This document shows positions 8,801-46,749 of a stretch of DNA of 64,000 nucleotides, piece by piece. Positions within the stretch are counted from its first letter, which is position 1. Each line of letters starts with the position of its first letter. The notes under the pieces were generated by a model. That model saw only the letters and a list, made by a program, of their open reading frames with translations. It was not told where the DNA came from and did not search any database. The DNA comes from Thermothelomyces thermophilus ATCC 42464 (taxonomy: Eukaryota > Ascomycota > Sordariomycetes > Sordariales > Chaetomiaceae). A program made the position numbers and the translations under genes. The stretch lies in contig NC_016475.1 in the NCBI RefSeq assembly GCF_000226095.1, forward strand, positions 620,001 through 684,000, given 5' to 3'.

Positions 8801-9423
8801 TAGTTTGTGCATGACCTTGCAGGCGGAACAGGTGATGGGAGAAAGAAATACAATGGTCATAATAAATAGTCCTTTGCGAACAAGGGTATTGTCGGTTATG
8901 ACGATATTAATCCGAACTTTCCAGCCCCAAATGGCGGCGATTGCTTTGGCAATGGATAGGATCCAACATTGGTACTGGTCCTTGCTCTCCACACGCTGTT
9001 GTCGGCTTAATTACTCCTCGCCCTAAGCTCCCCTCCCCCCTGCCTTCTATGTACATGTTCCTCCTCTGATTCGCCAACCGCTTTGCAGACACTCTAGACA
9101 GTAAGATGTTTTTTTAGCAACATGATCTGGATGACTCAGACGCATCACTACAATCTAATCGAAAAGGGGAAATCCATGTCTCTGTAATTTCCAAAGGTGA
9201 CAGCAGCCTGAACAAGGCCGTCCCGGACTGCGGATATTGGGGGGATGATTTGCAACCTCAGCTACCACCGAGAGTATCGGGGAATCGTCAAGCCATAAGC
9301 AAAACAAGATGGCGAACGACAAGATAAGGCCCGATCAGAAACGCAGAGCCAAACGCTGCCCTCGCTGTGCAAGAACATCCCGTGGCCAAACAGACTCGTC
9401 TCGCCCATCCTTCGCCTGACAAT
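8801..9423. other. Intergenic, convergent 3' ends
   Basis: Spacer between the convergent G-patch and calmodulin-like genes. It holds their 3' untranslated regions and one TAATTA at 9008. I see no gene in it. Confidence 0.6.
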
Positions 9424-10543
9424 TTATTTCATAATGCTGGCGAATTCGTGATCTAATTAATCAAATTATAAAATAACAGACGCAAACAAATGTCAGTCGG
9501 CCAAGCATCATAAAAAAAAAGAAGAAAAGAGAAGCGTGGGGGGTGGCAATTAAAGGGAGCGCGTAACGCACAGTCGATGGTGCCGTCGCCGTTGCGGTCG
9601 GCGAGCTTGATCATCTCGTCGAGCTCCTGGTCGGTCAGGTTCTCGCCCAGGGACTTGAGCACGTTGCGCAGCTCGTCGCTCGAAATGGTGCCGCTGCCGT
9701 CCTTGTCAAAGACCTTGAAGGCGTTGAGGAGCTCCTGCTCCGTGTCCACCTCCTTGACCGTCTGAGACATGAGGGTGAGGAACTCTGTTTTTCCAAACCA
9801 GTTGTTTAATTAGTTTTCCTGCTTGGGTTGTTCTGTCTCCGTCCTTCATCTCCTCGAAGCGGACCTGAAAAGGGCGGGCAATCAATGACTGACGATACCT
9901 ACCGTCGAAAGAGATGACGCCGTCGTTGTTGATGTCGACCTCGCTGACGAGGTCCCGCAGCTCGGCCTCGCTGGGGTTCAGGCCCAGCTCGCGCATGACC
10001 TGGCCGAGCTCATCGGCGGTGATGTCGCCTGGTTGCCCGCGCCCCGGACGTGTCAGTCAGTACGGCGACGCCAACGGAGAAAACATACCCGAGGCCGACG
10101 TGAGAAGGGGAAGTTGGGGGGGGTTGATTCTCACCTGTGCCATCCTTGTCCTGCACAGTTGGGAGACACAGTTACCAGAGAGGCGGGGTCAGTCGCTTGT
10201 CCAAAGCTTCAATATCCATCTTTATTTGTGCATGCGGGGGGGGGCAACTTGTGGTCGCGTGGTGCAGTGGTTCAATCGTGCTTTAGGGGGCCAGCACTAA
10301 GGACGTACAAAGATCTCAAAGACTTGCTTGTACTGGGCAATTTGGTCCGGTTGGAGTGTGTGGGCGCCCTGAAACCGCCGTGTTGTCAGCCATCGATTGC
10401 TCAGTAAAAAGGTGGCGAAGATCACGAATATCAATTTCAGTCGTTAAGGCATTGCCTGAGGCTCGGAGCAGGGAAGCGAGTCCGGTGGGCTACAAGGCGG
10501 TCTTATCTCACGCATGAGAGCGGGTGGATCCGATACGTACCAT
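9424..10543 (-). CDS. Calmodulin-like protein with four EF-hands
   Basis: Six exons on the minus strand join to 148 codons plus stop: 10543-10541 (the ATG alone), 10368-10309, 10150-10135 (a 16-nt microexon), 10028-9903, 9784-9572 and 9452-9424. All splice sites are GT-AG and all phases match. The product carries four canonical EF-hand loops at residues 22-33 (DKDGTGDITADE), 58-69 ([12 protein letters not shown]), 95-106 ([12 protein letters not shown]) and 131-142 ([12 protein letters not shown]), each with acidic or oxygen ligands at positions 1, 3, 5 and 12. It should be a cytosolic calcium sensor. It differs at many positions from the nearly invariant fungal calmodulin, so I read it as a calmodulin-like paralogue, not the essential CaM gene. 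An intron right after ATG is known from fungal calmodulin genes. The assignment of the ATG-only exon is the least certain part. Confidence 0.88.
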
Positions 10544-11509
10544 GTTGTGTGAAGTTTAAAAAAAAAAAAAAAGAAGGGACAAATTTCTTGAACCGCTTTG
10601 CTGGGTAGGGAGATGCAGAATGTTTGTTGGGGGGAAAGAATCGACTCGAATGAAAAGGTAATCGGGCTGGAATTTCGCAAGTGAATAATAATATGAGGGG
10701 GAGGGGCAGCCATGGCACCGGCCGATCATGAAACACGTGCATTTGTTGGCGCAAAAACGCGGCCCTGCCTTACCAGGCGCCTTACACTACCTGCTGTGTG
10801 AGCAGTGATTCGCTGGTGGCCAATTCTCCGCGCAGGGCAGGCTTCGGGGGTTCTGAGAAACACGCGCTCAACCCTAACCCCGCTCTTGCTTTGTAGTCCC
10901 CCGGTTTCCTTTGCGAAAGACGACTTGGGAAGAGCGCATCAACTTAGCACAGTAAGCTGTTCACTTCGAGGCTCGACGGAAATATGTGCCATGGATCTCT
11001 ATATCGATTTTTGGGAAGCCATTTCCTGCAGAACATGCATACTTAGTTTATAGACATGCGAACCGAAGTCTAACGAAGTACGGTCATAGTTCACAGCCCC
11101 ATAAGGCGACTTTGCAGGATCATCGTAAACGCAGTACCGTCCTCGTAAACACCTGGAATCCTAGTCTATCCTTGGACCATTACACCCCCCTTGCCGGCCA
11201 GAGCGGCTATTGGTTGCCTCCTTTGGTCTCAAGTTCCAACCGCGCGACTGAACATGAGGCGAACAGTCCAAGTCATAAGCGGCGGGTTAGCAGCTGCGAT
11301 GTCACATTACGTCACCGCAAGCTAGGAGGACACGCGACCTCCTGCTAAAACCGGTTCTCTATCACGAGTTGCCAAGGCCCAATAGTGTAAGTGAAAAAAG
11401 GAAGAGATGGATCATGGATTTTAAGCTGCACATTGCATGGTGCATTCATTCATTCGTTCCTTTTAATCTCTTGTTTCCATACCTAAGGTATTAATATTCG
11501 TTCTTCGCC
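10544..11509. other. Divergent intergenic region
   Basis: Shared 5' region of the calmodulin-like gene (minus) and the MFS gene (plus). It contains an A-run at 10558-10572 just upstream of the calmodulin-like ATG. No additional gene is supported. Confidence 0.5.
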
Positions 11510-13135
11510 ATGTGGTCGGTCATTCAGCAACGCCGGCTCCGACGACAAGCGGAGTCTCAGCGCAACGACAGCCAGACCGAGAAAGGCGGCCGAACAAGCT
11601 CCGGGCAAGCGACGGATGGCGATGCCGAGAAACCTGGCCAATTTAATAGTCAAGACAACAAGATCTGGGTCAAGACAACCGGCGACGATGACCCCATCGA
11701 CCCGCGTAACTGGCCCCTGCTCGACCGGTCCAAGAACATCGCCATCCTGGCCTATCTCATCTTCGTCCAGGCATGGGCCGGCGCCGCAGAGTCCATGGCC
11801 AACAGCGCTGCGAGCCAGGAGCAGGGCCACAGCAAGGTGGCCGAGAACCTGACCATAGCCATGTACCTGTTCGGCATCGGGATCGGTTCGCTATTCGCCG
11901 GGCCTGTGTCGGAGTCAGTCGGCCGGAACCCGACCTATCTCGTCTCGACGTTTTGTTTCCTGTTCTTTGTTCTCGGGGCGGCCATGGCGCCGACATTTGG
12001 CGGCCGGATCGCATGGCGATTCCTCATGGGCCTCTCTGCCAGCCCCACGCTGGCGATCAACGGTTCGAGCGTGAAAGACCAGTTCCGGCCGGTCAAGAGG
12101 GCGTTTGTGTTTCCGATTATTGCGTGGGCGAATGTGGCCGGTAAGCAGGTCCTTTAATACAAGCATTATTTCAGTTTTGCTCCTGGCGCTGACTGGTCTG
12201 CAGCCCCAATGATTGCGCCGGTCGCAGGTGGCTGGATAGTCGAGAGTCGCGGTCTGGGATGGCGCTGGACCGAATGGACCACGCTCATTATTTCGGCGCC
12301 TGCATTTATTCTGGCTCTCCTCTTTCTCCCCGAGACGTACCTCCCCATCTTGCTCGACTGGAAAGCTGCTGGTCTTCGCCGGGCCACCGGTGACGACCGC
12401 TACGTATCGCAGCATGCGGAATCAAGCACCTTCAAGGAACGGTTGAAGAAACAGGCCACAATGCCGGCCAGGTTTTTCTTCACCGAGCCCGTTGTTGCTG
12501 TATTGGGCATCTATCTTATCCTGGTTTACATCCTCCTGTTCACCTTCCTCTCGGGCTTCGACTACATCTTCAAGGACACTTACGGCCTCTCGACCGGAAT
12601 GACCGGCTCATGCTTCGCGGCGATTGCGGCAGGGACCACCGCATACACCCTCTTAGCGCCGGGGCTTAACAGTTGGTCGCGGAGGAAGACGGAGTATGTT
12701 AAGGGCGCCCCCGTGGAACCCGAGTTCCGCCTCTGGTCGGGCATTGTGGCCGGCCCGCTCTTGCCGCTCTCGCTGTTCTGGCTCGGGTGGGGAGACTACA
12801 GCAGCGTCTCCATCTGGTGCAGTCTCGCGGCGTGCTTCCTCTTTGGCATTGCCGTGCTCGCCATCTACGTCAGCAGCTATGAGTACATCATCGACAGCTA
12901 CGGCGAACACTCTGCCGTGGCCCTGTCGAGCATCACCTGCGTTCGGTATATGGTGGCGGGGGGAGTGGTCATGGCATCGAGGCCCATGTACAGCGGCATT
13001 GGAGTGCATTGGACGCTGACCCTGCTCGGCTGCATCGCTGCTTTGCTGGCACCCGCGCCCCTGGTGTTCTGGAAGTTGGGGCTAAAGCTTAGGAGAAAGA
13101 GTCCATATGCTGAGAGTCCGGATGAGGATAAGTAA
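11510..13135 (+). CDS. Major facilitator superfamily drug/polyamine exporter (DHA1 type)
   Basis: Two exons, 11510-12140 and 12204-13135, with a 63-nt intron, give 520 residues. The N-terminal about 75 residues are polar and cytosolic and end in the PIDPRNWP motif typical of fungal DHA1/FLR1-TPO-like transporters. About twelve hydrophobic segments follow, split by a central polar loop (about residues 290-320). Conserved landmarks are the loop after TM2 (GPVSESVGRNPTY), the segment PMIAPVAGGW in TM5, and GLGWRWTEW before TM6. It should export drugs or small metabolites across the plasma membrane by proton antiport, but the substrate cannot be told from sequence. No gene cluster surrounds it. 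Confidence 0.88.
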
Positions 13136-14044
13136 GAATGGGATTTCAGGTATTTAGGATCTGAGGGATAGAAATGATACCCTTTTGCCAGCAGGGGTTC
13201 GGCGTCGAAGTTCATGCATTCTTGTACGGGCTGAAACTGGATGGGACTCCAATCACCTCAGCCAATAGTTAGCATCTGATAGCAGTGTACTTAGCCTGAT
13301 CGGCTCTCCTTTTAATCTTGCAACAAAGCTACCCGGGGGCAAGTAGCATACGGTGGTCCCTGGCTCGAGCTTGGCTCTGAAGGAGCACAGCGTATGTCGG
13401 ACTAGTCGAAGACCTTTCGCAGATGGAAGAGCAGAGGGAAAGCCAGGATTATGGCAATACTTGCCTGATTGTAGGTCAGGATTCATTTGCAAATGACCAC
13501 TACTATAGTATATAATCCTAAACTCACTCAACTAGTTATCCCAAAGATACATTGCCTAAGCCAAATCCATTGATCCCTCTTTACGTCCACATGCTAGCCC
13601 ATGATGATCCCCATTCTCCCCAATGAAAAGACATCACTTCTTCTGCGTTACCAAGTGCACAGTCTTGATATGTTCCCCCTTGTCGTCAAGGCATACGGCG
13701 GTGATGTGCGAGCGAGAATCGGACTCGCTAGTGTGATCTGCTTCACTGGACAAGAAGGGTGTATGTCAGACAACCTGGGCCAATTGCACGAAGGAAGCCT
13801 TCAGCTGAGAAACAATTTGCTTACCGAGTCAGCACTAACCACCGGGTAGTTAAAATCAGAGCAGCTCGCTTGTAAAATGGTCGATTTCGATCTTGGCTTT
13901 GTGAGCTGAGCACTGCTTTCGTTCGCTTGAGGCTCAGTTTCCCCCAGTCCAGGCTGCATCGCACGTGCCACCAGCCAGGGTGTGAAAGACCCGTCAGTTG
14001 CCAGTGTGCAGTGCAGTGACGCGGTTCGATCAACGAGCACAACC
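13136..14044. other. Intergenic
   Basis: A 0.9-kb spacer between the MFS gene and the kinase gene. It has only short overlapping open frames on both strands with no recognisable domain. Confidence 0.5.
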
Positions 14045-15401: not shown

Positions 15402-16475
15402 AAGTTGCGGCGGTCCTTGGTCATGTAAGAAGGATGTCAATGAAGTCCGAGTCAGTTTAAGGTATTTGGTCGAAAGCTTTCTGCGGTGCGCAATATGGCA
15501 CGAATACCACTATGGTATCGTATTATTGTAGCCTTCTGAGCTGTAGCGATTGCAGCCACCAAGCTGTAGCAGTAGCATTTATAGTACGAGCTCGGTAGAG
15601 AAGTGATCCCCTATTGACCGATTTTCTTGCTAGGTAGACAAATGCAAGCAGAGGCTCTGGAAGAGCTAGGCATAGGGGCTTCAAGGGCTAGAAGTTATTA
15701 GTGCTCCTATTATGTGTGGCGTTTGTTGCTGCTGTGGTGGCGCTGCTGCTGTGGTGGTGGTGCCGCAGGCAATAATTAATATATTCCCTTCCCAAATCCG
15801 CTGGTGAGATTGGTTGAGTTGCTGGAAGTGCAATCAATCAGACGAGTTGGAAATCCAGCCACAGCTCCCAAAGGATCGCAGCTCAGAGTCCTCGGACCTT
15901 TCTCTCGCTGTCCTCATTAGGTTAAAGTGGGCTATGAAATCTAAATGAACACAATACACAATCACGCGTACTTGTGCATACATATTAATTACCTGATTAC
16001 CTTATTGATACCGACCTACATTACCTGCGCACACTTGGGCGACTCGAGTCTTCAGATACGCGTACATCATCATTCTTGCGCCCCTCCTCCACATCTTCTG
16101 CAGTTCCGACGTCCTAGCCGAGGCCCAAACTCGGATGGGAAGCGAGTTGCTAACACTGCCCTTAAGATGCGTCCAGCGGTCGATGATGCATCGCTGTCGA
16201 AACAAAAGCAGCTCCCTGACGGTCGGCTGGACCGCACGGCCTTTTATTTTCCTCTTCCACCACAGAAACCGGTCTTCCCCTGAGCTTCGACACAGCACAC
16301 TGGGCACCAGAGTGACTACGTTCCCGCTGATTCGTCCGACATTTCCCCCGTTCCTTGACAGTCAGCCAATGTTTGGAAAATGGGTACGTAATAATACAAC
16401 TCGGTAACTCAATCAACTTCTTCTCTCCCCGCTCACCCGTCCACGTAGCCGACCCTATCATTGATTTCGCCCATC
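15402..16475. other. Intergenic with a dispersed repeat copy
   Basis: A spacer of 1.07 kb downstream of the kinase gene. It contains a repeat copy at about 15462-15650 (listed separately), two TAATTA sites (15773, 15986) and a GCTGCTGTGGTGG-rich stretch near 15730-15765. No gene is supported. Confidence 0.5.
15462..15650 (+). repeat. Dispersed repeat, GC-normal copy
   Basis: The sequence around GGCACGAATACCACTATGG (15497) and AGCTGTAGCGATTGCAGCC (15540) matches 47690-47880. The second copy is shifted by many C-to-T and G-to-A changes. The element is short and non-coding, of unknown class. It begins in the 3' flank of the kinase gene. Confidence 0.6.
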
Positions 16476-17356: not shown

Positions 17357-17751
17357 TAGTCGATGCGGCAGGTCCACGCGGGGAAAGCAGTACTTCATCG
17401 TCATTGTGAGAGAAGGACGGTCAGCTCCGACATAACGGCCCGCCAACTGGCAGGATGTGCAGAAAAAGGGCATCCCTCGCTGAAAACACGGAGGATGGCT
17501 AGGTACACATGACGTTTCCGGCAGAATGCCTAATTACAGGTTCCCTCCGGGGCAGTGCTGGCGCCTCTGTTGAGCTGCGAACGTCGCCATATCATAATTA
17601 GGTAGTCTGCCCATCGTGGGATTATATTGCTCATCTCGCGGGGATAAATAATTAATAGTGGCTCATTCCATCATGACAATGTTTGAATAATTACTCCCCT
17701 CGTGATTCCAGGCATAATCAATTAATTAATAATAATTACCAATTAAATCCC
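17357..17751. other. Intergenic, AT-rich, cluster of TAATTA
   Basis: The spacer between the hypothetical gene and the dead ammonia-lyase holds six TAATTA copies (17531, 17595, 17649, 17688, 17723, 17733), the densest cluster in the island. No gene is seen. Confidence 0.6.
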
Positions 17752-19350
17752 CTAGATGCCCGACTCCTTCCCGAACTTCATGATCCTATCGTGAAGTTCG
17801 CCCCTACGCAACGCCTCGTAAATCTCCCCCGCCATTGTCCCAATCGTCCCATCCCGGACCGCTAATAGCTCCTGTTCGATGGAGGAGGTAATAACATCCT
17901 CTCCGTCCGCTCCCGAGCCATTCGGTGCGCACCTGTCGGAGCCTCGCTTCTTGGCCTCCTCGGCCTTGCGCAGCAGCAGCGGAGGGCGGTCCTCGACGCC
18001 CCGGTTGAGCGGGATCCTCAGGTCCTTGCGCATGAAGTCGTACACGACCCTGGACGCCAGGCTGATGTAATTAGTCGGCCGTGGTCCGGCGGCGCGCAAA
18101 CTCGTCCCGCACGTCGCGCGTAGCACTCCCCCAGCGCCGCGGCCATCCGGGCCTGGTACTCGCGCAGCCCCTCCACCGACGAAGCGCCGCACTCGGCGAT
18201 CAGACGCCCCCAGCACCGCACCGAGCGACTCGTCCACGGCCGTCCGGCACCTGTCCGCGCGGTCCAGGTGCGCCAGCCGGTCCCACCGCCCGAGCACCGC
18301 CGTTTTCACCCCCTCCACGATCGCCTCCTTGTCCTCCTTCACCTTCTTTCCCTCTTCATCTTGGCTCCCCCGGCTCTCGCCACCGCCGTCGAAGAAACAG
18401 CGCTCCACGACGTCCCTGACGACGGCGCCCACGCGGGCACCGAACTCGAGGCGCAGACAGCGCAGGCCGAGGGCCTGGCAGAGGACGTAGGCGTAGGCGG
18501 CGTCGAGGGCGCAGCGGGCGGCGACGAGGGCCATCGAGTTGACGCTCTGGTTGGCCATCTCGGCCGGCAGCACGTGCGCGCTGACCGGGTGCGCGCACGC
18601 CGCCACCTCGGCCTGGCCCGGGTGCGGGCGGACCGAGGAGATGAAGGGGTGGTAGTTGTTGGCCGTCCCTCCCAGGGCTTCGGTTCCCATGGCCGTAAGA
18701 AGCGGGGCGGTTCCGTTGATGATGCCGAGCCCGTCCTTGGCCTGGAGGCGCAACGGTTCGAGCTTGGCCAGCTTGAGCGTCTCCCTTGCCGACAGGATCC
18801 TCGTCTTTCCGTCTTCGCTGCTGCTGCTGCTGCTGCTACCTACCCTCACAAAGATGTCGGGATTAATTACCCTCAATTGCGCCGGCGATATATGAAAGGG
18901 TGGATAGGTCTCCCGACGCAGAGATGCTGCCGCGTAGAGGCACCACGGGGATTACGTCGAGGGCCAGAAGCTTCATGACGGACTCTATGACGCTGATCCG
19001 CACGCCCGAATTGCCCCGCATAAGCGAGTTGCACTGACGATGGGGGTCGGGAGCGTATGGCTCCGCAGCAGGCCATTGTCCTGGCTCCGGTCTGCCTCCT
19101 CCGCGTCCGTCTTGTCGGCTTTGAGCAGGATACCAACGTTCAAATGCTGAATGGCTGCGCTCTGGAGCTGCTCAAGGTGCTGCGTTCTGGTGTCCGCGCT
19201 GCCGCCGAACCCGATGTTGACGCCATAGATGACGTTGCCGGCTTCGAGTTGGCGTTTCAGAAAATCGACGCTGTCGCTGACGAGTTGCAGATCTCTCGGG
19301 TCGCGAGACAGCATCGCTGTGCCCCCGTATCTGGACCAGACGTTAACCAT
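17752..19350 (-). pseudogene. Phenylalanine/aromatic ammonia-lyase pseudogene (PAL/HAL family)
   Basis: The minus strand encodes, in three frames, clear pieces of a fungal PAL: VIYGVNIGFGGSADTRT near the N-terminus, [12 protein letters not shown], the MIO-forming Ala-Ser-Gly in [51 protein letters not shown] and a C-terminal VVYDFMRKDLRIP helix. An intact enzyme would deaminate Phe to cinnamate and have about 700 residues; this locus could encode only about 530. Two stretches are missing: the one after NGTA (about 20-40 residues) and the large one between HPGQ and HPVSAHV (over 100 residues). The frame is shifted near 19055, at 18864-18869 and at 18068-18073. The latter two are 4-bp insertions turning TA into TAATTA. 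GC content is like its neighbours, so the loss is recent and not due to RIP. Confidence 0.85.
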
Positions 19351-21176
19351 GCGGACCTCCTTTCCTCTCCCCCTGTCTGGGCATGTTCAAGAAAGGGAGC
19401 GGAAACCACCTGGGGCTTACAAGGAGACGACTACGACATCGGCAAGGGTCAAGTCGCGGCCATTGCCTGCGAATGCGGCGTCTTAATGGTCTGAACTGTG
19501 CAGTCCAGTCTTTCTTGGCGACCTAGCCTTATCGCAGTTCAACGCCCTAGCGATAAACTGCTTGTATGTACATACGATAGAGTACATACAACGGTATCCC
19601 CTGTCTTTTGTAAAAAGGCGGCCGGAGGTCCGTTTCGGAGCGGACCCTAAGTGGCGCCGAGGCTCCAAGGCTGCGTGTGGATAATTAGGCACCTGGTTCT
19701 TTACTTTTTTTTTTTTTTTTTTTTTGGGTGAGGGGGGGTGTTCTGGGACCTGACGATCCAGGACTATGTATCACGTTCCCACGCGGTCTGAAATCTCCAA
19801 GCGGACACTTGGGTTTATTTTCCGCCTCTTGAATGGCATCTTTCGCCTGTCCAACGAAGGTCGGAGGTCATTTGGCATTTGGAAGGTGAAACTGACTAAC
19901 CTTGGACCAGAGGTGTCGCCGAATTGACCGCTATTGCCCTCTTGAGCTTGAGGCCCCCTTGACATGCTGTGATTCTCAGCTGTGTCCACATGTTCGTAGA
20001 AGGTAGCTAGCAGAGAGCTGCGAGGAAGAGAATTAGAAGAAGGCTTTGCCCTAGGCTGCGTAACCTCCTACCTCCACTTTCCCTTCAGGCACAAGGTCAG
20101 CCCGAGCCTCGGGTCTCGGTGCAGCCTTCAACAATAATCTGAAGCACTGTTCAACCTGCATGGAGCTGCATCAACTGCAAGGGGTGTCACACCTCGGAAA
20201 ACAGAGATTGTGCAAACAGGATCACACGCTTCGCGAAGTTTGCTTTTGTCTGGCATATTGAACTACTTGAGGAAAGGGGAACAGGGCGCAAGAACCATGG
20301 TAAAGTTCCTACGCTATATTCTTCTTGAACGGCCGCTTAGCTGCATCCACAGCCTGATGGGGTGCTGCTATTCCGCCTCACCTTAGGTAGATTGATAATC
20401 CTGAAGTGCTGCGAGTATTACGACAATCCTCGGCAAGCGGCCTATCGAACTCGAGCTCCTGTCAGGATCATCGATTATTAGTATGAGAACCAGATGGAAT
20501 GAAGACCACCCGAGAAATTTGAAAGAACTTCTTCCAAAACCCCACCTGATATTTGAAACGTGTGCGCAGGTAATGCTTTCCTCCTTCTCATCCAGCTGCT
20601 GCCGGAAAGCTTTTCAGCTGCAAAAGCTCTCAGCCAAGCACTGCAGCTCAGGTACTGCAGTTGCGCCTTGTGCTTTGACTCGACACTCCTTCCGGCTCCT
20701 TCTGTTTCACCAGCATGTCCGCACGCGCGCCTTCCTGCGCCCAGTCCGTTGCTGTCCGCACCTCCCAGGTCGGCCTTCCTCCAACGTCGTCCGACTAGCG
20801 GAACTCATGCCCAAAGGAGCACCATAGCCCTGGCACTTGACTATTAAGCAACGCAGTGCGAGTCCGCCGGCTGTCTTGCCTAGACGTATAAGATGAAGCA
20901 TGTGCCATCGTAACCCGCTTTTCACGTCAGGCAACAAGCTGGTTCCGAAACGCTCTAGCATGTTCTTTCCTCGTATCCTGCCAGATGAGGCTCTCTGACA
21001 TCTTCCGCCGCCTCGTGTCTTGTTTTATCCCATCTCGCCAGAACCCAGATACAAAAGGGGCTCAATATCAAAACAGGCATTGCCAACCGTCTTCTAGTCC
21101 CTCTTCAGACACAATCCTTCCCAACCCTCCAGTAACCAACAAGAGCTTCACAAAGAGAGTCACAGCAGCAGTCATC
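19351..21176. other. Intergenic, 1.8 kb
   Basis: The spacer between the divergent lyase pseudogene and the reductase gene. It contains a T-run at 19705-19725 and one TAATTA at 19682. Short open frames (20483-20827 and others) show no domain, homology or splice logic that I can support. Confidence 0.5.
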
Positions 21177-23012: not shown

Positions 23013-24524
23013 TCAAAGCCAAGCAGCCGCGAAACCAAGGACAGCCGCTCCGGCAACCCCAGTCAGCTTCATCCGTGCCCTAGGCGCACCAGCCGTGACG
23101 GGGATGCCGGTCGACGTCGGATGAACCACGCTGTCGCCCGTCCCGGTGGGTGTGTAGTCCACAGCGGACGAGACTGGCCATGTCACGCTGCTGCTGCTTC
23201 TGCTGCTTCTGTCGATGGGGTAGCATCCCTTACCGCTGCCGGGGCACGAGACGTGCGGGGTCACCACGGACGAGAGCACGGTCGTGCCGGGTCGGCCGTT
23301 CGAGGGCGCCTTGGTGATGGTCGGCTGCGGCGGCGGTGGCGGCGGCTGCTGCCCCTCGGGGGACCACGAGGAGACGGTGATCGTGGATGCGGCGACGGTC
23401 TCGGTCACGATGGTGACGGGGCCGGTTGCGCCGGGCTCGGTGTGGCAGCGGTGCGTGGCCGGGCACGAGGTGACGATCCGCGTGGTGGTTTTATACACGG
23501 TCGAGACGGGCGGCGGCGGCGGAGGGGGGGCCGCCGCCGATGAGGAGGAAGAAACGGGAAAGAAGGAGGAGGAGGAGGAGGAGGCCGAGGGAGAGGATGG
23601 GCTTCCCGACGCCGACGGGGGAAGGACGGTCGAGAAGGTGGTTGAGTTGGCGAGCGGGGGATGCCAGACCGACTGCGGCGCGGAGGTGGTCGTTTCCCAG
23701 ACGGCAGTCGACGACGTCTCGGACGGCGTCTCCGTGGTGGCCGAGGTCGAAGTCCCCTCGTCGGCCGGCGGGGTCGACGTCGAGCTCACACCTCTGTCCG
23801 CGGCCGCCGTGGAACTGGATGACTCTCCGGTCGTAGTAGTAGGGCTGGGTTCGGGGAGGAGAGTGGGACCGTGGATCTCGGTGTGGCCAGGCCCCTCGTC
23901 CGCCGGAGACGTAGAGCTGGTAGACTGCTCGGTCGTCGCGCTCGGGGGATCTGGGAGTAGAGTGGGACCCGGGATCTTGGTATGGTCGTAGCCCTCATCC
24001 GTGGACGTCGAGCGGGTAGACTACTCAGTCGTCGCGCTCGGGGGCTCTGGGAGTAGAGTGGGACCCGGGATCTCCGTGTGGTCGTAAACGTCCTCCGTGG
24101 TTGTGGAGCTGGTTGACTCCTCGGCGGTGTTTGTCGGGTCCGGCAAGGGGGCCATGTCATCGGACGAGGTGGGTGTCGGATCCGGTAGCGGGGCCACACC
24201 ATCGTCGTCGGATGAGGTGGTCGAGGTGGCAAATGTGGTCTCGCTCGCGCCGCCGTTCCCGGTGCAGACAAAGCCATCACGGCAGCAGCCCTCTTCACCG
24301 TCGTCGCCAACCATGCAGCGCGCATCAGGGGGACAGCCACCCTTGTTGCCGGGGCAGCAGATGTGGTCGAAGGGAATGCAGCCCGTTCCACATCTCTGGA
24401 GGCCCAACTCGCTACAGGACTGGGCCATGTCGCCGTCGTTGCGGCGGAGAAAGAACGAAGACGAGGAACGGCCGGCAAGGGCCAGAGCGGGCAAGACGCC
24501 CAGGAATATTATAAATTTGTGCAT
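23013..24524 (-). pseudogene. GPI-anchored Ser/Thr-rich wall protein gene with one in-frame stop
   Basis: One open frame of 504 codons, broken only by a TAG at 24023-24021. The protein starts with a signal peptide (MHKFIIFLGVLPALALA). A Cys-rich module of eight or more cysteines (CSELGLQRCGTGCIPFDHICC and following, residues about 37-90) comes next, then a long Ser/Thr/Pro-rich stalk and a hydrophobic C-terminus (GVAGAAVLGFAAAWL) fit for a GPI anchor. The stalk holds three imperfect 32-33-residue repeats around HTEIPGPTLLPEPPSATTE. The stop replaces the Gln (CAG) found at the same place in the second repeat. Either the allele makes a 167-residue secreted truncated form, or it is a pseudogene, or the stop is a sequencing error. 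Everything beyond it stays in frame, so the lesion is young. Confidence 0.72.
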
Positions 24525-27500
24525 TTTTATTTTTTGTTAAAAAAATGAGCGTAACTAGTTGATCGCAAACCTAAAGTTAAATGAGCGTGGGAGTCCCAAA
24601 GGACAGAAACGAGCGACTGGGTTCGAAGACGCTGTGTGCCAGGAAACGGGGAGAGGAGTGGAAGACGGAAAATAATTTTAAATTCAAACGGAAGAGGTCA
24701 TGACTGGGACGATCATCAGCCCTCCCAGGCTGTCTTTGTAATGTCCACGAGCCGCAACGGGCAACGGGGGCATCATCTAGCCGGGACCGAACGTGGTGTC
24801 TGGGTCGATGAGGATACAACGCCAAGTCCGCATGTTTTGTTCTGGGAGGAACGGCACGGGGCATGGCCTAATTTCTTCAGGGGTCGAAGCTCTCAGCTCG
24901 ACGACCAGCCAAATGGCAGACCCTTGCTACAATTTCGAGATCGACACAGAACGCCTAACTACTCTCAGCGCCTGCGGTTCCGCGGTGATGTTTTTGGCAA
25001 ACACGAAATGAGGTGGCATGCGCGTTTTGAGGGTTAAACAATGTTGGGATCTTGTGTGCGTTAATATGACCAATTGGGACTTGGACGTTATAGGCAAGCT
25101 GCCCGAGCGAAGTCAAGCCCACACCGCGCCGTTGCCGTAGCTTCTGGCTCTGCAGGAAGAGAATTTGAACGGGCAAAGATGAATGAACAGAATTAATCCA
25201 CCTCAGAAATTGGAGAATTCAGTCCTGATTGACTGTTCCACTCATAATTAATACTCCGTATATAGGACCCTAAAACTGTGATCGCCCATGTCAGGGAACA
25301 CAAGCCTTTACGTTCCCAAGGTAAACACAACACGGCTGACATGGGACTCGGAGCAATTCAGATCGGGTTTACCCGAGCGTTAATTACCATTTCCATCATC
25401 CATGCCAACCAAGAAAACCACCTCGCCACGGCTCATTTCAGGCAACCTCAGCCCTGCACTCTCCCAAGCGTCCCATTTCACCCGAGTCTTCCAAATCCCA
25501 AGCGGAAATGAAAAGTCTGGCGACAATGAAAAACAATCAAAGCACGTATATATTTCCCTTTCCTTTTCAGTTTCTTTTGTTTACGTTGCATGATCAACGC
25601 AAGGGTAGAGGGTGATCCGAAGGGGGCCTGATGGAAGATGGTTCCAGTAGATGGAAGAAAGTTTGTAAGTTCAAAATAGTTCAAAAGTGCGATATCTTCT
25701 TCCTACATATACTGGCCCTGTGGCTCTGTATAAGTAGAGGGTAGGAACAAAGAACCCTCCGTTTGCCAGTCCGTTTGCCAGATCCACAGGGCTTATCTAA
25801 CCTCACATGACAAACGCGTCCGCAGACAAACGAACTGTATCAGGGCCACTCAGAGAAATAGTGGTGGGCGACTCTCACGCGAGGTAAATATTTAGAAAGG
25901 GGAGCTGGAGGTTTCAAACTCGGCGCATCAATGTGTATGTTCATGTCCAGGTATATACCATACTCTCGGGTACCTGTTATCCGTATAGTCAGGTAATTAG
26001 TTACATACACCGGGCGGGAGGCAACTGTTCCTTTTCAAGAATCACCCAACCACTCCCGCCAGCCGCACCAGCTGCCTGAGGAAATGGAGGGTATGATGCC
26101 TAATTCAACCGGGACCACTCTCTTGAATCACTATTACCTTGAGGGAAGCGGCTGGTGACTGGAACACTAATAAAATCTCGCCGAGCAGCTTTATATTTGC
26201 AGCTAATTAGTACTCCAATGTTGCCCCTTCCAGCTTTCGTCGTCCAAGATCCTGGGCCAGCCGAGATGCGGCTTGCTCAAAACTTCAGCCTCACGTGCAT
26301 GAAGCACCTATTTCAAGAAGGAAATATCCCCGTACTCGACCCTCACAGTTGGGCCATTGCGGGTATGCCCCAGCGGGCCGCTCCGCCCGGGCGAAAGCAC
26401 GAAAGGATCTCCGCAACCGTACGATGGCGCAGCCCATTCCTTCCTAAAACACGGGCAACTCATCCCGTAGAACCTTTGCGGGTTTGTGTAATTGATCGCG
26501 CATGTATGTACACACAAAGGTATAGGCTGACGTCTCACCTCAGCTATTAATTAGGGGCACCGATTCCAATGGTGCTTATGCTAGCCTCTATTTTTCAACG
26601 GCCTCCACAAGCTCCTGGCTTCCCAGGAATCTTTGTAGATGATGAGCTCGGCCTACTCTTTCTGGCTTCCCCCCCCCCCCCCCCCAAACTTGCAATTCAA
26701 GAGCGCATATCAAGTAGTACTCTCGTCGGTCTTACCCTGCTCCTCCGGCACATCTACGCATTATTAATCAAGGCGCTCAAATCCACTACAGTCGAACTCG
26801 GTCAGTTCGACGCCGATGTTGTTGTGGGACATCTCGTCGGCTTGGGAAAACGATGCTTCCGGAGTGCCTGTGCTCCCGGTGGTCGTCTCCATAGCGGGAA
26901 GGCCATTAGGTTCAAGAAAAAGCGAGGAGATGCGAGTATGATGTTGTTTCTGTTACGCCGTTGGTGTGGAATTAACGCTCTTGGTCCGTGTTTTAATTAT
27001 AGCACAGCCATCTTGGCCTACAGCCGAGGTGACCAGTTCAAACAGCCCTGAAGGGGACAAGGCCTCAATTGATTCCCGGGGAGGGCGTCTCTTGGCAATA
27101 TATGCCTCCATACACTTACACTTTTAGGTTGATAGCACTAACGGGCGCTTTCCCTGGTTCACGGCTGTCATCGAGTGTTCGTGTGCTCTGTGTATTCAAT
27201 CATCTAATTAGAGAAGCAGTGCGATGCAATGCATAAGCGTGAAGAGGATCCTGAAGCGAATTACAGGGGATACCAAAGTTTGTCTATCAGACGCCGGATC
27301 GATTAGAGGTCTCACAGGGTGCGGTGGGCATGCTGGAGCTGGATACTGGCCGCCTCGGACGTTTGGCGTCTTGAGCCCATGGCGAGGATGGGACCCCGAT
27401 ACCCAAGCCGCTTAGCTTGGTTTCGAAGGCCATGCGCAGTCACAGACAACTTAAAATCGGAGCTGATTTCGTAAGAAGACAGCGGTGCAATTAGGTAGAG

Positions 27501-28534
27501 CACAATGCATGCCAGTCATTGCGCCGATACCGCTGAGCGTCGATCAGGGCTGGTGAGGGCTCTCGTGTCTCTGGCTCGGAAACGATCTCGTTTGTCTCAG
27601 CAACCTCGAGACCTTGGTAGCTCGCTGTTTCGTTCTCCGCAGCCAAAAGTTTCCATTTGCTTGGTAGTTTCTGTTTCCAACACAGCACGGGCGGGGTTCT
27701 CGCCATCTTGGGGCTCAATGATGCCATAATTACACCTCCGGCAGATCGGTGTCCTTGGCGTGGGGGCTGCGGGACGGAATCTCACAACCTCCAGATTTAG
27801 TTTGTAGATCTTATTGATCTAGAAGAGTGTCGACAACGTCTTGGGATTGCTTTGCGTCCCGAGATGCATGTGATATTGGCTTGGTGGGGGGCTGATGCCC
27901 CCTACTCCGTACATCGCCGACCATACCTCCTCAGCTTTCACCCCTCATTCTCGTACGGCGGAGACTGTTTACGCAATTCCAAGAGCAAGACGCTAATCAG
28001 TCATTATTACCGCGACTTGCGTGACGATGCAAGCCTAATCCGCCAACAAATGGCAGTGGGGTTCGCGCACACGATGGATCGCGTCGAGCTCAAGGAGCTA
28101 AGCCTGGATGAGCGGGGAAGCTAGCGATCAGACAGCAACCAAGTCTCGGAACCAGCAATTAGCCCCCCCAAGTACTCAATGCACTCGATGAAGATTGGAT
28201 ACTCATGGTAGGTTCTGGTAATACCGGGCCCTCATTGTGGTCGGCGATCCTGATGATGAAATCTCAGTAGTTTTGTGCGCAATGTACTAGATACTGAGGA
28301 CATGATGAGGAGCAAAGGAGAAAGATAAAATCAATGGTTGCCTCAAAGGCTCGCCGTGTGACCCCATTGTGGAAGAGTACGGACAGCATTGGGACAATAT
28401 TCTTTCGCACAAACATCCCTCGCCGCGTCCCTAGAGTTCAGCCCCTGGAAGCAACCCCGCGCATCGCAGTGCTCCGAGTCTCCAAGGTCCAGGCAGACCT
28501 AAAGTTTTTTTTTTTTTTTTATATATATATAGCC
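24525..28534. other. Gene-free region of 4 kb
   Basis: No supported gene. It holds eight TAATTA copies (25245, 25381, 25994, 26204, 26548, 26994, 27205, 27727), two TACTCCGTA motifs (25252, 27903), a C17 run (26669-26685), a 12-bp tandem duplication TCCGTTTGCCAG at 25758-25781, and a TATA-like TGTATAAGTAGAG at 25726. The longest open frame (26569-27051) crosses the C-run and looks random. Base composition is unlike the RIP blocks. Confidence 0.55.
28503..28531 (+). promoter_or_regulatory. T-run and (AT)5 tract directly before the start codon
   Basis: A run of T (28505-28520) followed by ATATATATATA ends three bases before the ATG context AGCCATGG at 28535. Such tracts exclude nucleosomes and may hold the TATA or initiation region with a very short leader. 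Function is inferred from position only. Confidence 0.35.
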
Positions 28535-36296: not shown

Positions 36297-36347
<51 letters not shown>

Positions 36348-37128: not shown

Positions 37129-38658
37129 ATGTCAACGGTCAGCACCCAGGATGGCGCGGGCGCCAATGGCGAGCACGAGGCAGTCATCAGAAAAGAGGTG
37201 CCGTCATTCCTGACCAGGCTTTCGTACGCCGGCTACATGTACGGCTTGAAGAGCATCTTGGCCGCCTTCTTCTGGCTGCGCGAGTGGAAGGAATCCCGCA
37301 ACCCGCCCGAGGGCGGCCCCGACATTGTGAAGACGTACGAGTGCCGGCCACATCTCCCTGTTCGGTGAGTCAGTTTGTTGCCCGCGGTGCCCTCGTTTTT
37401 TTTTTTTTTTTTTTTTTTTTTTTGGTTTTTTTCCCGGGAGTTGGTGCGCTCATCGAGGCCACGCTCAAGCATCTTCTTTCCATCCTCCTACGACCAGACC
37501 TCCCCCGTCGCCTTGCCGACCCTCTTCACCATTCACGGCGGCGGCTTCTGTGTGGGCCACCAGCGCGACGATGACGAGTGGAACCGCGCTTTCGCCGATT
37601 CTTACTCGGTCCTCGTCATCTCGCTTAACTACTCCAAGGCGCCCACTTACCCCTTCCCCGCGGCGCCCCACGACGTCGAGGCCCTCCTCTTGGCCGCACT
37701 AGAAGACGCCTCCCTCCCGATCGACCGCGGAGCCCGCGCGCCGGCCAGCCGCACCGCAATCCTGGGCTTCTCGGCAGGCGGGAACCTCGCCCTGTCTGTG
37801 TCCCGTATGGTCCAACCCAGCAGCCGCCCTTTCTTCACCCGGGCGTTTTAAAACCTAATTATTATACAAGCCAATCGCAGCTAACAATGCCAACCGACAG
37901 AGCTCCCCGCGGTCCGCGCCCATCCCCTGGCGCCGCGCGCGGCCATCACGGTCTACGGCAGCCTGGACCTGAGCTGCCCGCCGCACGAGAAGCTGCAGAA
38001 CCGGCCGTACAAGCCGGCGCTGCGGGCCCCGCGAGGCAACTGGACCTGGACCGGGACCGGGACGGACCCGGTCCTGGCGCTCGCGCCGGCGTCCGACTGG
38101 AGCTACATCCCCTACGGCCAAGACCTGCGCGACCCGCTGCTGAGCCCGCTCTACTACCGCGACCGGGCCGCCCTGCCCGCCTTCGTGGGCGTCGTCGCCG
38201 CCGAGCTCGACATGCTCGCGCACGAGAGCTGGCGCTTCGCCTGCCGCCTGTCGCGCGGCCGTGCCGTGCCCGACCGCCGCAGCGCCGACGCCCGCCGCCG
38301 CGTCTGCGGCGACCCCCACGGCCGCGTCACCAGCCGCCCCGGCGAGCTGATCGGCCTGCTGCCCGGGAGGGAGGACGAGCGGTTCGCGTTTGAGGAGACG
38401 GTGTACGCCTCTCCTCCTCCTCCTCCTCCTCCTTCTTATTATTCTTCTGCTGGCTCTGGAGGCGGCGGCGGCGGCGGCGTGGCGGCCGTCGGGGGTGTCA
38501 AGTGGCTGCTCGTGCCGGACGTGTTGCACGGGTTCGACAACCCGCACATGAGGGCCCTGATGGGCGGGACCGAGACCATCAAGGACGCCGAGCTCAAGAC
38601 GGAGGCCTACAGGGCCGAGTTGGCGAGGTGGCTGAAGGAGGTGGTGTGGCGAGTGTAA
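37129..38658 (+). CDS. Alpha/beta-hydrolase, HSL-type esterase/lipase
   Basis: Three exons (37129-37364, 37470-37804, 37901-38658) give 442 residues. Hallmarks of the hormone-sensitive-lipase family are all present: the oxyanion-hole HGGGF (His101 onward), nucleophile Ser180 in GFSAGG, the acid Asp294 in AAELDMLAHE, and His400 in DVLHGFDN. It should cleave carboxylic esters or act as an acetyl-hydrolase. No signal peptide is evident, but residues 28-50 are hydrophobic and could anchor or form a lid. A low-complexity insert (polyPro then polyGly, about 360-385) precedes the catalytic His. The first intron contains a T-run of about 26, and its acceptor CAAG is inferred from the frame. The second intron holds a TAATTA (37856). 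Confidence 0.87.
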
Positions 38659-41497: not shown

Positions 41498-42342
41498 GTT
41501 TCAATTCGGCAGGGCATGTACATACTCCGTACTCGTACGGCCAACGGCCCCCTTATTAGGGGACCCTGGGTGGCCTCTAGTCGAGGCATGGCTGCCTTCT
41601 TATCCGAGAAGCAGGGTGTGGAGAAGGATGGCCTGCTTCGGCGCATTGCGCTAGTGTAGGGCCCGCTAGTAGGGCCCGCTAGTGTAGGGCCGATAGCTGA
41701 CGACGTCATCTCTTAGGTCGGGAGGACCCGCGGCAACTTGGAGCCTGCAAGTCGAGAAAAAAAACGACGAAAGAAAAGAAATCGAGAAACGAAGCGCAAA
41801 ATACGGTACAAATCACAATGCTATCCGGTTTCTGTTCAATTAGATTGGAATCGCAGAGTCGGCCGTGCTGTGTGAGACGAACAGAAAGAAAATGCCAAGC
41901 GACCGCAGTGACTGAACTGCTCAGGGGCCCGCCGGCTCCGGAGCTCAGTTACAGAGTGACTACTCCGTAGTGCAGGGCCGAGCCAAGGTTCGGACCGGTA
42001 TCGCCAAGCCGGGGGCCCACCTTTGGCAGTTGCGCCGATCCATTGCGGGCATTTTTCCGGATACTCGGGAGATGAAGTGGAAGTTCTTCCTTCCGGGGCA
42101 TGCATCAATTGGCATCGAACCATAGTTACAACCACAGGGCACACCATCCTCCCAATCATGGCAACAGAGGCCGCTTGAGACGATTTCGCAGAGTTGAGGC
42201 GCTGACCAATTAATCGATTCGAGAAGGTGGGGGGAGGAGAAACAGAGCAAATTTGCATGGCAGCGGGGCTCCGGAAATACCAAGGCTTCGATTTGTCGTG
42301 TTATTCCCAACACAGCAAATCCGAGAGAGCAAATTATGAATT
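41498..42342. promoter_or_regulatory. Divergent promoter region of MFS and SET genes
   Basis: It contains two TACTCCGTA motifs (41523 and 41961) and a threefold tandem repeat of GCTAGTGTAGGGCCC-like units at 41650-41691. No gene is supported. Regulatory role is inferred from position only. Confidence 0.4.
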
Positions 42343-43652
42343 ATGATGAACCAACACGACACATGCCGCTTCGGCGCGCTCGTCGAGTGGGCAGAGCAGC
42401 ACGGAGCCCGGCTGCATCCGTCGGTCGAGATCTACCTCGACCCCGTCAGCAAATACTCGCTCCGCGTCAGCCCGTCGGCGACCGAGGGCCTGCAACCGGG
42501 TTTCGCCGCAGTCAGCTGTCCGGCCCGAATCACGCTGTCGTATCTGAACGCCCTTGTCGACGGGCTCCTGGACCCCTCGGCTCTGTCGGATCGGTCGGCT
42601 CAGTCGGCTCGGCTGGACCAAGAGACCTCCTCGACCGGCGCGTTCCCTCCCCGCTTCACCCGGTCCGTCCCGCCCCACGTTCTCGGCCGCTTCTTCCTGG
42701 TCAAGGAGTACCTCAAGGGGAAGGATTCCTTCTGGTGGCCCTACATCGCCACCCTCCCACCTCCCGAGCAGGTCGCCGTCTGGGCCCTGCCGCCCTTCTG
42801 GCCCGACCATGACATCGCCTACCTGGAGGGCACCAACGCCCACGTGGCCATCCAGGAGATCCAGGAGAACGTCAAGCGCGAGTTCAAGCAGGCGCGCAAG
42901 CTGCTGAAGGAGGAAGACTTCCCCGACCTGCCAGCATACACCCAGCTGTTGTACAAATGGGCCTTTTGCATCTTCACCAGCCGCAGCTTCCGCCCCTCCC
43001 TCGTCCTCTCCGACGCCACCAAACGGCGCCTTTCCGCCCTCCTCCCGCAGGGCGTCCAGCTCGACGACTTCTCCGTCCTGCAGCCCCTGCTCGACATCGC
43101 CAACCACTCCCCGACCGCCCGCTACACCTGGGACACCACCAGCGTCCCGGACACCTGCCGGCTCATCTGCCACGACCCTTACCAGCCCGGCACCCAGGTC
43201 TACAATAACTACGGCCTCAAGACCAACAGCGAGCTGCTCCTCGCCTACGGCTTCATCCTGCCCGAGACGCCTTCCCTGCACAACGACTACGTGCACGTCC
43301 GCAAGCGGGCCCGGCAGCAGCCCCAGCCCCAGCCCCAGCACCAGCAGGAACGTGGGGAGGAGGAGGAAAGGCAAAGGGAAGGCGGCGGTGGTGGCGGTGG
43401 TGGAGAGCCCCCACCGCAGAGCTTCCTGATCTCGCTCCGGCCCATGGCGCACCCCAGCTCGCTCGCCGGCCGGGCGCGGCTGTCCTCCTCCTCCTCCTCC
43501 TCCTCCTCCTCGTCCGCCAGCCGCCTGGCGTCACTCCCCTGCTTCGCGCACTTCGAGCCCGCCCTGGTGGACGACCTGGCCGCGGCGCTGGCCTCGCCCG
43601 GCGAGAAGGAGGCGCTGCGTCGGTGGGGCGGCGATGGCCCGGGTCCCCACGA

Positions 43653-43684
<32 letters not shown>

Positions 43685-43974
43685 TTGTTGTTGTCCCGGA
43701 GGAGCTCAGGGAGCTCGTGGACAAGGTCAGGGGCATGCTGGCGGGCAAGGTGCAGTACGACTACGGTAGGCTGATGGAGGTGGAAGGGGTTGAGGAGGAT
43801 GGGGATAGGGAGGGGGAGGACGGCGAAGGAGGGAAAGGAGGGGAAGGAGGGGAAGGAGGGCTGCCGCCGCCGGCGAACCGGAACCAGGCGCTCGCAGCCG
43901 AGTATCGGGGTCAGTGTGCCAAGGTCTTGTTGGCTGCCTTGGAGGGGCTGGCGGTAGAGGACGGGCTGGGTTGA
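42343..43974 (+). CDS. SET-domain protein-lysine methyltransferase (SETD3/RKM/LSMT type)
   Basis: A single exon encodes 543 residues. The order is that of the non-histone SET family related to Rubisco LSMT, SETD3 and yeast Rkm proteins: an N-SET (FGALVEWAEQHGARLHPSV), a long iSET insert with a helical region (FFLVKEYLKGKDSFWWPYI to YTQLLYKWAFCIFTSRSF), then the AdoMet/lysine site with DIANHSP (251-257) and YNNYGLKTNSELLLAYGF (287-304). It probably methylates a ribosomal or other cytosolic protein. The C-terminal Rubis-subs-binding-like region is interrupted by low-complexity runs (Gln/Pro, Gly, Ser, Gly) coded by simple repeats. The first codons offer two ATGs (42343, 42346). Confidence 0.88.
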
Positions 43975-44228
43975 CCGCAGAGGTGTGTGCTAAGGCTGAG
44001 GTGCGAGGTTCGGAACAGCAGAGAGAGAGCCCTGGTAGATGCGTTTCGCGATTTGTTCATGGACAACCAAAGAGCATGCCAATACTTTTTTTACATGAGT
44101 TTGTAGTAATCATGGCTAGCTTAGAAAGAAAGAGAGAGTTGTGGCATTCGTAATGTGCTGTAGGACAGTGGGTGCGCCGCTGCTGCACAGCCTTTTGAGG
44201 GCGAGGGCCGTGCAACTTTTTTTGACGT
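43975..44228. other. Intergenic
   Basis: The 3' flank of the SET gene up to tRNA-Ser. Nothing was recognised. Confidence 0.45.
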
Positions 44229-44325
44229 GACAACTTGGCCGAGTGGTTAAGGCGACAGACTTGAATCTCCACATTCGAGATATCTGTTGGGTTCGCCCTC
44301 ACAAGTTCGAATCTTGTAGTTGTCG
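44229..44325 (+). tRNA. tRNA-Ser (TGA) with a 16-nt intron
   Basis: The acceptor stem GACAACT pairs with AGTTGTC (44318-44324), discriminator G. The class II long variable arm (TGGGTTCGCCCTC region) and the box A sequence TGGCCGAGTGG are present. The anticodon stem is ACAGA/TCTGT with anticodon TGA at 44262-44264, followed by an intron (44266-44281). The T arm is ACAAG TTCGAAT CTTGT. A T-run terminator lies at about 44342. Confidence 0.92.
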
Positions 44326-44671
44326 CTCGTCTCTCATCTCTCTTTTTTTCCCCGCTGCCATCCCCCGCCTGCGCTGAATGTAAAGGGATGCAGAACTCGA
44401 CGTTTTTGACACAACGCAGCGCATTCTGTTCTGCATGATAACCCATGACGTTCCATGTATGTACATGCCTCCGAGCTCTAGTAACTAAATCATGTCAATC
44501 GGCACTTTCGCTGTCTCCGTTGCAGAATGCAAGAAAACGTGGAACGAGCAATCGACACAACCTTAGCGTAAAAAGGTTGGAAACATTGCCGACAAGAGGA
44601 TGGGCCATTATTTGAAAGAAACGAAAAAGAAGCGTCATTAATGACAGATAGACATAAAAAGAGAGGAGCTT

Positions 44672-44757
44672 TGAGCCTGACCCGATTTGAACGGATAACC
44701 TTTCGATAGCCTCAATGGTAGCTGGAGTCGAACGCGCTACCGTTGCGCCACAAGCCC
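44672..44757 (-). tRNA. tRNA-Trp (CCA) with a 14-nt intron
   Basis: On the minus strand the acceptor stem GGGCTTG (from 44757) pairs with CAGGCTC, discriminator A at 44672. The D arm is GCGC AACGGTA GCGC, the anticodon stem TTCGA/TCGAA has loop CTCCAG and anticodon CCA, the intron is 44721-44708, and the T arm is ATCCG TTCAAAT CGGGT. Two G-T wobbles in the acceptor stem are tolerable. Confidence 0.88.
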
Positions 44758-44855
44758 TCTAAGCTCTTGTTGTTACTAACAGGGACGGTTCGGGAGAATA
44801 TACGGACTACAACCATCCTCGGCTCATTCATCGAGTCATTGGCCATTATCTCGTG

Positions 44856-44906
44856 TACCATTGCGCTACAAGCTCTCTAGTGTAATAAGCTCTTGTTGTT
44901 GCTATC
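44856..44906 (-). repeat. Truncated tRNA-Trp 5' fragment with flank
   Basis: TACCATTGCGCTACAAGCTC (44856-44875) copies the 5' part of the tRNA-Trp gene (44738-44757) with three transitions, followed by the same flank AAGCTCTTGTTGTT (44887). Only the acceptor 5' strand and D arm are present, so it is not a functional tRNA. It is a partial tandem duplication of the locus. Confidence 0.6.
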
Positions 44907-45782
44907 ACAATTTGTCGAGGAGCACATGTAACCAATCTCCACTCATTCATGACCCTGAGTCGGTTCAATACAAGACTCCGCCAGGGGTTAAGGGTTGATC
45001 TTGCGAGATATTCATCCCAAACGTTATTCTTAGCATCTTGCTCCTCGCTTCGTTGTTTGAGAGCTCGCTACATCACGAGGCTGCAGGTGAGCTTCCCAAC
45101 ATTGCTCTGATTGTGCCTTCTGCTGTCAACTATCAAGGGAAGGGCATTAAATTGCTGTCTGCTGCATCGTTTGAGAAATCTCGAGAATCGAATGGCTCCC
45201 ACATTCCGCCATCTCAGAGATCCAGGCCCTTCAGGGCTGCACAGGCAAGGGCCTAATTGTGGGATAGTGTCGGTTCCTGCGGCTAAATGCCGGGCAGGGG
45301 CCGGTATTAATCAATCTACTATGTATTTTCGACCTCGGCCAAGCCGGGCATCGATTTTATCCACCCGCAACCCGGGAGCTGGCTCTCGGCGAGGGACGCT
45401 CGCGCGACCTTGGCATCAGGTACCCCAGGTCGTTGCGCCCGCAGCTCCTGAAACGGGGCGGGCGACGATTGCCTCCGCTCCTTTTCCCCGGGCTACAACT
45501 TCATTTCCCCCACTTGACGCGGAGAATTACTTAGATGAAGATGAAGATGGAGAGGGGGGTTGGTTCCGGGCTCCTCTTTGCCCTCGATGTACAAGGATAG
45601 TTGTCAACAGGCGAGGGCTCCTTTGGAGGATATATATATATCGGGAGGGACCTAAGGGGATCGACGGGACGTTCACACCAAAGCTTGCGTGCGTCGGTCT
45701 TGTTCAGCCCTTCCAAGCATACTCGGGTCCACCACCCACAAAGTCAAGTCGGAGTCGGCCACATAGCCACCACGACAGCACC
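44907..45782. other. Intergenic and promoter of the chitin deacetylase gene
   Basis: No gene is supported. A strong TATA-like TATATATATA at 45631-45640 lies 143 bp upstream of the ATG at 45783 and is probably its core promoter. An open frame covering 45111-46106 continues into the gene but has no signal of coding before 45783. Confidence 0.5.
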
Positions 45783-46749
45783 ATGCTCGCCGAGACTGTC
45801 CTCGCCGGCCTTGCGCTAGCCTCCAGCGCCATCGCCGCGCCGGCACCGAACCCGATCGAGTTTGTAAAGCGGGCCCCAACCCCCGGCGTGGTCATCCAGA
45901 AGTGCAGCACCCCCGGAGTGCTCGCCCTTGCCTACGACGACGGCCCGTACCAGTACACGTCGCGGCTGGTGGACATCCTCGACGCCGCCGGCGCCAAGGC
46001 CACCTTCTTCTGGACCGGGACGCTCTACGGCTGCATCTACAACCAGGCTAACGCGGTCAAGAAGGCCTTTGCCTCGGGCCACCAGATCGCCTCTCACACA
46101 TGGTGAGCAAAACCGACAGCCCTCTCTTTCTCTCTATTATTTTTTTCTTTTCTCTTTTTCCATTGTAATAATGCTCACACAGACACATCAGGACCCACCC
46201 CCACTGGGCCAGCTTGGGCGAGGCGCAGATCCGGCAGGAGATCACCAAGCTCGAGGACGCCTTCGTCAACCTGATCGGCAAGAAGCCGGCGTACGTGCGC
46301 CCGCCCTATCTCGAGACGGGCGGCCAGGTCCTGCCGGTGCTGAGGTCGTTGGGCTACAAGGTCATCACCAACGACATCGACACGGGCGACTGGAACCACT
46401 ATTCGCCCCAGCAGAGCGAGCAGGCCTTCCTGCAGGCCGGCGCCGGCGGCAACGGGCACATCCCCCTCATGCACGAGACCTACGACTCCACCGTCAACGT
46501 TCTCACCCCCTGGCTGATCAACTGGGCCAAGCAGAACAACCTGAAGCTCGTCACTGTCGGTGAGTTTCCTGTTTAATTAACTCCCTTTCTCCCCCCAATC
46601 CCTAACCAGCGCGGCACGCGACGATATCCAAGACACGCTGACGAGCCGTTTTTAATCTTCTTCTTGTCGCAGCCGAGTGCTTGGGCGACCCCGACGGCGC
46701 GTACCAGGCCGGTAACTTTGAGCCTAATGGCCAGAACAGCTGCTATTAG
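45783..46749 (+). CDS. Secreted chitin/polysaccharide deacetylase (CE4)
   Basis: Three exons (45783-46102, 46192-46559, 46673-46749) give 254 residues. A signal peptide (MLAETVLAGLALASSAIAA) and a Kex2-like Lys-Arg at 29-30 (EFVKR) precede the catalytic NodB domain. All CE4 motifs are seen: AYDDG (Asp52, Asp53), SHTWTHP with zinc ligands His105 and His109, RPPY (143-146), DTGDW (170-174), and IPLMH with His201. It removes acetyl groups from chitin or chito-oligomers in the cell wall or medium, metal dependent. No chitin-binding module is present. The short third exon adds the Cys-containing tail ECLGDPDGAYQAGNF. The second intron carries a TAATTA (46574). Confidence 0.94.

Follow-up and report, generated by a model that had tools for sequence, protein, structure and literature searches.

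Tc1/mariner transposases cut the 5' ends of their elements two to three bases inside (PMC2170065), and the footprints made by end joining are bordered by the TA duplication (PMC2874221). When donor DNA of ISY100 was re-ligated in vitro, the junction read TATATA, that is, two TA dinucleotides separated by two bases (TA-N2-TA; PMC2170065). Among fungal elements, the Tc1-mariner families described in Sclerotinia begin with ACGT, TcMar-Pogo excepted (PMC4188875). Here we describe a strong excess of the hexamer TAATTA, a possible excision scar, in the GC-rich part of a 64,000-nucleotide stretch of Thermothelomyces thermophilus ATCC 42464 (contig NC_016475.1, positions 620,001 to 684,000; the whole stretch is hereafter called the window). 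The TAATTA sites share with the ISY100 junction the order TA, two bases, TA, and apparently also a gain of 4 bp at the target TA (PMC2170065). They differ from the described Tc1/mariner footprints in that their inner bases are AT, and neither an element nor a transposase or an excision event was seen with them here. The TA target is common to them and to Fot1-like and other fungal Tc1-mariner elements, and the ACGT ends of Sclerotinia agree in the first base, A, only (PMC4188875); neither a copy nor a terminal inverted repeat was found in the GC-rich part of the window.

The window consists of a GC-rich island at ~5.6-47.4 kb with AT-rich flanks on either side, and its genes and introns apparently look fungal. 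An earlier note on this DNA (the original prediction) had counted about 28 TAATTA in the island; exactly 28 lie between 9008 and 46579, and its example positions all agree with the sequence. The interval also contains further palindromes made of A and T only, namely ATTAAT (18 copies, 12 of which overlap a TAATTA by hand count), ATATAT (13), TATATA (13), AAATTT (6), AATATT (4), TTTAAA (3) and TTATAA (2). The original prediction was to fall if TAATTA proved no more frequent than TTATAA or AATATT; since it stands far above both, the prediction survives this comparison. In the whole window there are 52 copies against 20.2 expected.

Exons were masked as 16 hand-picked exon-like intervals, a dead lyase gene being kept unmasked, which leaves 25,058 bp of island. 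In this masked island the 28 TAATTA compare with 3.8 expected from composition, 2.4 from an order-1 model and 2.0 from an order-2 model; among hexamers with at least eight copies, TAATTA ranks first at order 2 (z = 18.6) and second, after poly-A, at order 1. Against local dinucleotide shuffles, 300 for each of two shuffling sizes, we counted 27 TAATTA where 2.9-3.1 were expected, the number being 27 and not 28 because one intron copy lies in a segment of under 40 bp and drops out of the shuffle set. An automatic mask, consisting of open reading frames (ORFs) of at least 100 codons with raised GC content at third codon positions (GC3), loses 11 of the 28 sites and still gives 17 against 1.5. 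Under the same mask the counts were 11 against 1.3 after removal of the lyase region (17400-19800), and 7 against 0.7 and 10 against 0.9 in the two halves of the island taken separately; TAATTA was second behind poly-A in all four of these versions. The excess of the word is real and strong.

The sites avoid genes as far as genes were chosen by hand. None falls within the 16.7 kb of hand-masked exons, and two lie in the broken lyase gene, as the original prediction had claimed. Under the automatic mask, in contrast, 11 of the 28 touch some qualifying ORF, so that the claim of exon-free TAATTA depends on the hand choice of genes. Four are wholly within such ORFs (9807, 15986, 18068 and 18864), and several of the ORFs touched are probably spurious. 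One ORF has its end at 46573, and the copy at 46574 follows it directly.

The excess belongs to a class of words with a characteristic spacing. Among 144 dinucleotide pairs (16 dinucleotides at nine spacings), the strongest is TA-N2-TA, with 97 occurrences against ~40 (z = 11), followed by CG-N4-CG (z = 7.2) and several others with z from 5 to 7. Two TA at spacings 0, 3, 4, 6 and 8 are near background, spacing 7 is slightly below it, and spacings 1 and 5 are mildly raised. With TAATTA removed, 70 TA-N2-TA remain against 36.6, and these include, in island non-coding DNA, TACATA/TATGTA, which is the footprint of Tc1 (17 against 4.7), TAACTA/TAGTTA (11 against 4.3) and TACCTA/TAGGTA (11 against 4.5). 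TAATTA and its class therefore have the form of Tc1/mariner footprints, with TA on either side of a few residual bases. Of the forms with a single base between the TA, TAATA/TATTA is raised (40 against 22.3) and TACTA/TAGTA is not (16 against 16.3). Chains of three TA in 4-bp steps occur nine times against 2.0 expected, and chains of four once against 0.1. The enrichment is narrow around TAATTA itself: seven of its nine one-mismatch neighbours are at background, TAATTG/CAATTA among them with 11 in the island against 8.7, and TAACTA is a raised one (11 against 4.1). We found no long consensus in the bases flanking TAATTA, the second flanking base having an apparent preference for T (24 of 55, a raw count).

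Two of the sites lie where the reading frame of the dead phenylalanine ammonia-lyase-like gene changes. At 18864 the lyase frame reaches a conserved glycine and then a stop codon that starts inside TAATTA, and similarity resumes in the next frame; a codon-usage model that takes no homology into account places an overlapping frame change at all four penalties used. At 18068 a stop codon also lies within TAATTA, and the frame upstream of it is supported by similarity (P 0.01, against 0.41 and 0.71 for the other frames) and by a GC3 of 0.92. In both cases the shift is +1, the result to be expected if a gain of 4 bp had turned TA into TAATTA. We consider the frame change at 18864 firm and that at 18068 moderately supported, and to this extent both sites behave as the 4-bp gains that had been proposed for them. 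Of the 28 sites, two behave as an insertion of 4 bp relative to an ancestral sequence would, one of them firmly. In its loosest form the codon model has eight frame changes in the lyase, three of them at the gene ends, and two of the five internal ones are at TAATTA. The gene apparently has frame changes other than these two, so that its loss of function seems to have several causes.

Because the excess is narrow, because TA-N2-TA is the strongest pair and because the lyase TAATTA stand at +1 frame changes, we favour an insertional origin (TA to TA-AT-TA) for most of the excess, likeliest through Tc1/mariner-type insertion and excision, and we give this reading about an even chance. TA-targeting cut-and-paste elements, either autonomous or miniature inverted-repeat transposable elements, would have entered repeatedly and duplicated TA; excision by staggered 5' cleavage would have left one or two terminal bases, and end joining would have fixed the leftover bases between both TA. 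The transposon that made the scars would have had ends beginning with A or AT, and the spacer sites presumably arose in the same way as those in the lyase. With ends beginning AT, excision would leave a two-base 3' overhang AT; as this overhang is self-complementary, such elements would give TAATTA uniformly. The original prediction had instead proposed ends that start with A, each side retaining a single base. That version would work as well, but the AT overhang gives the same scar, fits the uniformity better and appears to be the best account of it. The label 'pogo' in itself gains nothing, because all Sclerotinia families begin with ACGT except precisely TcMar-Pogo (PMC4188875). Nor is the proposed burst of a hit-and-run element supported, since nothing dates the sites.

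Several observations weigh against excision scars as the source of the excess. The AT-rich flanks have no excess of TAATTA (24 copies, with 33 of TTATAA), and although they contain 3,297 TA against 906 in the non-coding DNA of the island, they show no spike at the two-base spacing; changes of the type made by repeat-induced point mutation should presumably not erase TAATTA. Six sites are gathered in the cluster at 17531-17738 (P ~0.0004 for 27 sites drawn randomly from 898 non-coding TA), and this clustering, together with the lack of a flank excess, argues against simple random scarring. TAATAA is raised as well (16 against 6.0), the excess of TACATA overlaps a TATGTACATA-like word, and the scar of Sleeping Beauty is TA-N3-TA (PMC2874221), a spacing that is not raised here. 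Within the lyase, a tandem duplication of TAAT would also account for the site at 18864. At 18068 the downstream frame is backed by phmmer, which also ran weakly through the upstream side, the codon model places a frame change there at one of four penalties (the loosest), and the two flanking pieces, each searched alone in the PDB, found no lyase. A donor element did not emerge either. A scan for TA-flanked inverted repeats of 60-4500 bp, with five exact terminal bases and at most 6 mismatches in 22, returned 13 candidates, none of them in the island, and Pfam searches over ~14.8 of ~22 kb of flanks found no Tc1/mariner transposase. An element whose ends match the residual bases was thus not found in the window, the flanks being partly covered. 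Finally, eight self-alignments of repeat copies (seven in the flanks, one in a tandem repeat of the island) contain 18 gaps, none of which is 4 bp long as an empty site would be. Scans of sequence collections with four proteins of the window found no relatives. The Pfam families that do occur in the covered flanks are reverse transcriptase, RNase H-like, integrase and Tf2-1-like, with one weak DUF4939. They belong to decayed retroelement pieces at 1-4900, 48900-53800 and 55300-60250, which comprise RVT_2, RVT_1 and a set in which reverse transcriptase and RNase H occur with integrase and Tf2-1-like domains.

The main rival, which the original prediction had named in the form of homeodomain-type binding sites, is that selection keeps TAATTA in spacers as a motif with a cis-regulatory or chromatin role, such as a palindromic homeodomain-type site; we regard it as a tentative possibility. 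TAATTA and TAATTG are homeodomain words, and the hexamer found here is identical to the first. Such a motif would suit an excess that is seen in the gene-rich island alone and is lacking in the flanks, and it would suit the clustering of six copies in 208 bp. Moreover, a regulator-like word, TACGGAGTA, is enriched in the island spacers at 5600-47400 (4 against 0.06 expected) and resembles the SomA-bound site GTACTCCGTAC (PMC7667024), and motifs can therefore cause a word excess of this kind. However, the graded enrichment of degenerate sites that a binding motif should leave is not seen, TAATTG and most one-mismatch forms being at background with TAACTA and TAATAA raised; there is no flanking consensus beyond the apparent T at the second base, the densest cluster lies 3' to the dead lyase, and two copies are at frame changes within that gene. 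Three viral contigs matched by a regulator-like word (L001-L003) were rejected as candidate relatives; their ORF layout looks bacterial or phage, not fungal.

It is less likely that a process other than transposition makes 4-bp insertions at TA, through micro-duplication of TAAT or fill-in of staggered breaks, and we consider this improbable. The site at 18864 has the form of a TAAT tandem duplication, AT continues in 12 of 56 TAATTA flanks compared with 182 of 1812 for all TA, and by raw count the rotation class of AATT is third among 4-mer tandem duplications, with 16. On the other hand, no tandem duplication is present at 18068, two of the 4-mer classes have higher raw counts (24 and 21), and the class effect requires TA on both sides. 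That AT-rich words simply gather in spacers, by composition or chance, is very unlikely indeed. The GC content is indeed lower in island spacers (0.537) than in exons (0.624), but TTATAA, which has dinucleotides identical to those of TAATTA, has its two copies only, and none of the 600 local shuffles contained more than 10 TAATTA; as regards dinucleotide composition, this explanation is refuted for the window.

A wider version of the transposon reading, which we hold to be doubtful, is that the spacers densely record, as fossils, several TA-targeting transposons that have since vanished, and that the end sequences of these elements can be read from the scars alone, with AT or A ends giving TAATTA, CA ends TACATA/TATGTA and AC ends TAACTA/TAGTTA. 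If this were true, scars would exceed resident copies, their density being about one per kb of spacer, and they could be used to mark insertions in genomes from which the elements have been purged. If the TAATTA sites are scars, short exact words could reveal past transposon traffic where the elements are gone, and a share of the small insertions seen in dead genes and in spacers would be accounted for; a regulatory motif, on the other hand, would be one of very high frequency in this island. Among the literature matches listed, judged by titles and the starts of abstracts, none describes TAATTA as an enriched motif or as a footprint left by excision in fungi, and earlier reports of Fot1 footprints in subscription journals may exist. 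TAATTA occurs twice in a paper on a Botrytis mycovirus, and the main text of a Fusarium motif-discovery paper, which has its full motif list in the supplement, does not contain TAATT (PMC2853525).

Coordinates of the features discussed, as positions in the window
Feature	Coordinates	Strand	Basis or setting
TAATTA-bearing stretch, 28 copies	9008..46579		mostly spacers, one intron, two in the dead gene
Cluster of 6 TAATTA in 208 bp	17531..17738		close by the dead lyase, on its 3' side
Broken phenylalanine ammonia-lyase-like gene, PF00221	17755..19386	-	aromatic amino-acid lyase family and solved phenylalanine ammonia-lyases
TAATTA at +1 frame change, candidate scar, not a tandem duplication	18068..18073		similarity, GC3, loosest codon model
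TAATTA at +1 frame change, candidate scar	18864..18869		similarity and codon model
Spacer with eight TAATTA, no recognisable dead gene	25245..27732		Pfam
Chain of four TA in 4-bp steps, TA-AT-TA-GT-TA-CA-TA	25994..26007		chain count
TAATTA in short intron of alpha/beta-hydrolase gene	37856..37861		Pfam for the gene; intron bounds read by hand

In the region around the spacer with eight copies (24.5-28.3 kb), a six-frame Pfam search returned no family at an E-value of 0.1, and thus no dead gene, and over 13.1-17.7 kb it returned just weak protein-kinase pieces. At 23791-24122, units of ~96-99 bp form a short tandem repeat. In the flanks, a 1.7-kb unit occurs twice head to tail at 48915-52358 (87% alike), and a repeat of 1.4-1.5 kb is found at 3-1471, 53952-55420 and 62606-63978 (82.5-85% alike), inverted across the two sides of the island, an arrangement that could allow inversion of the island.

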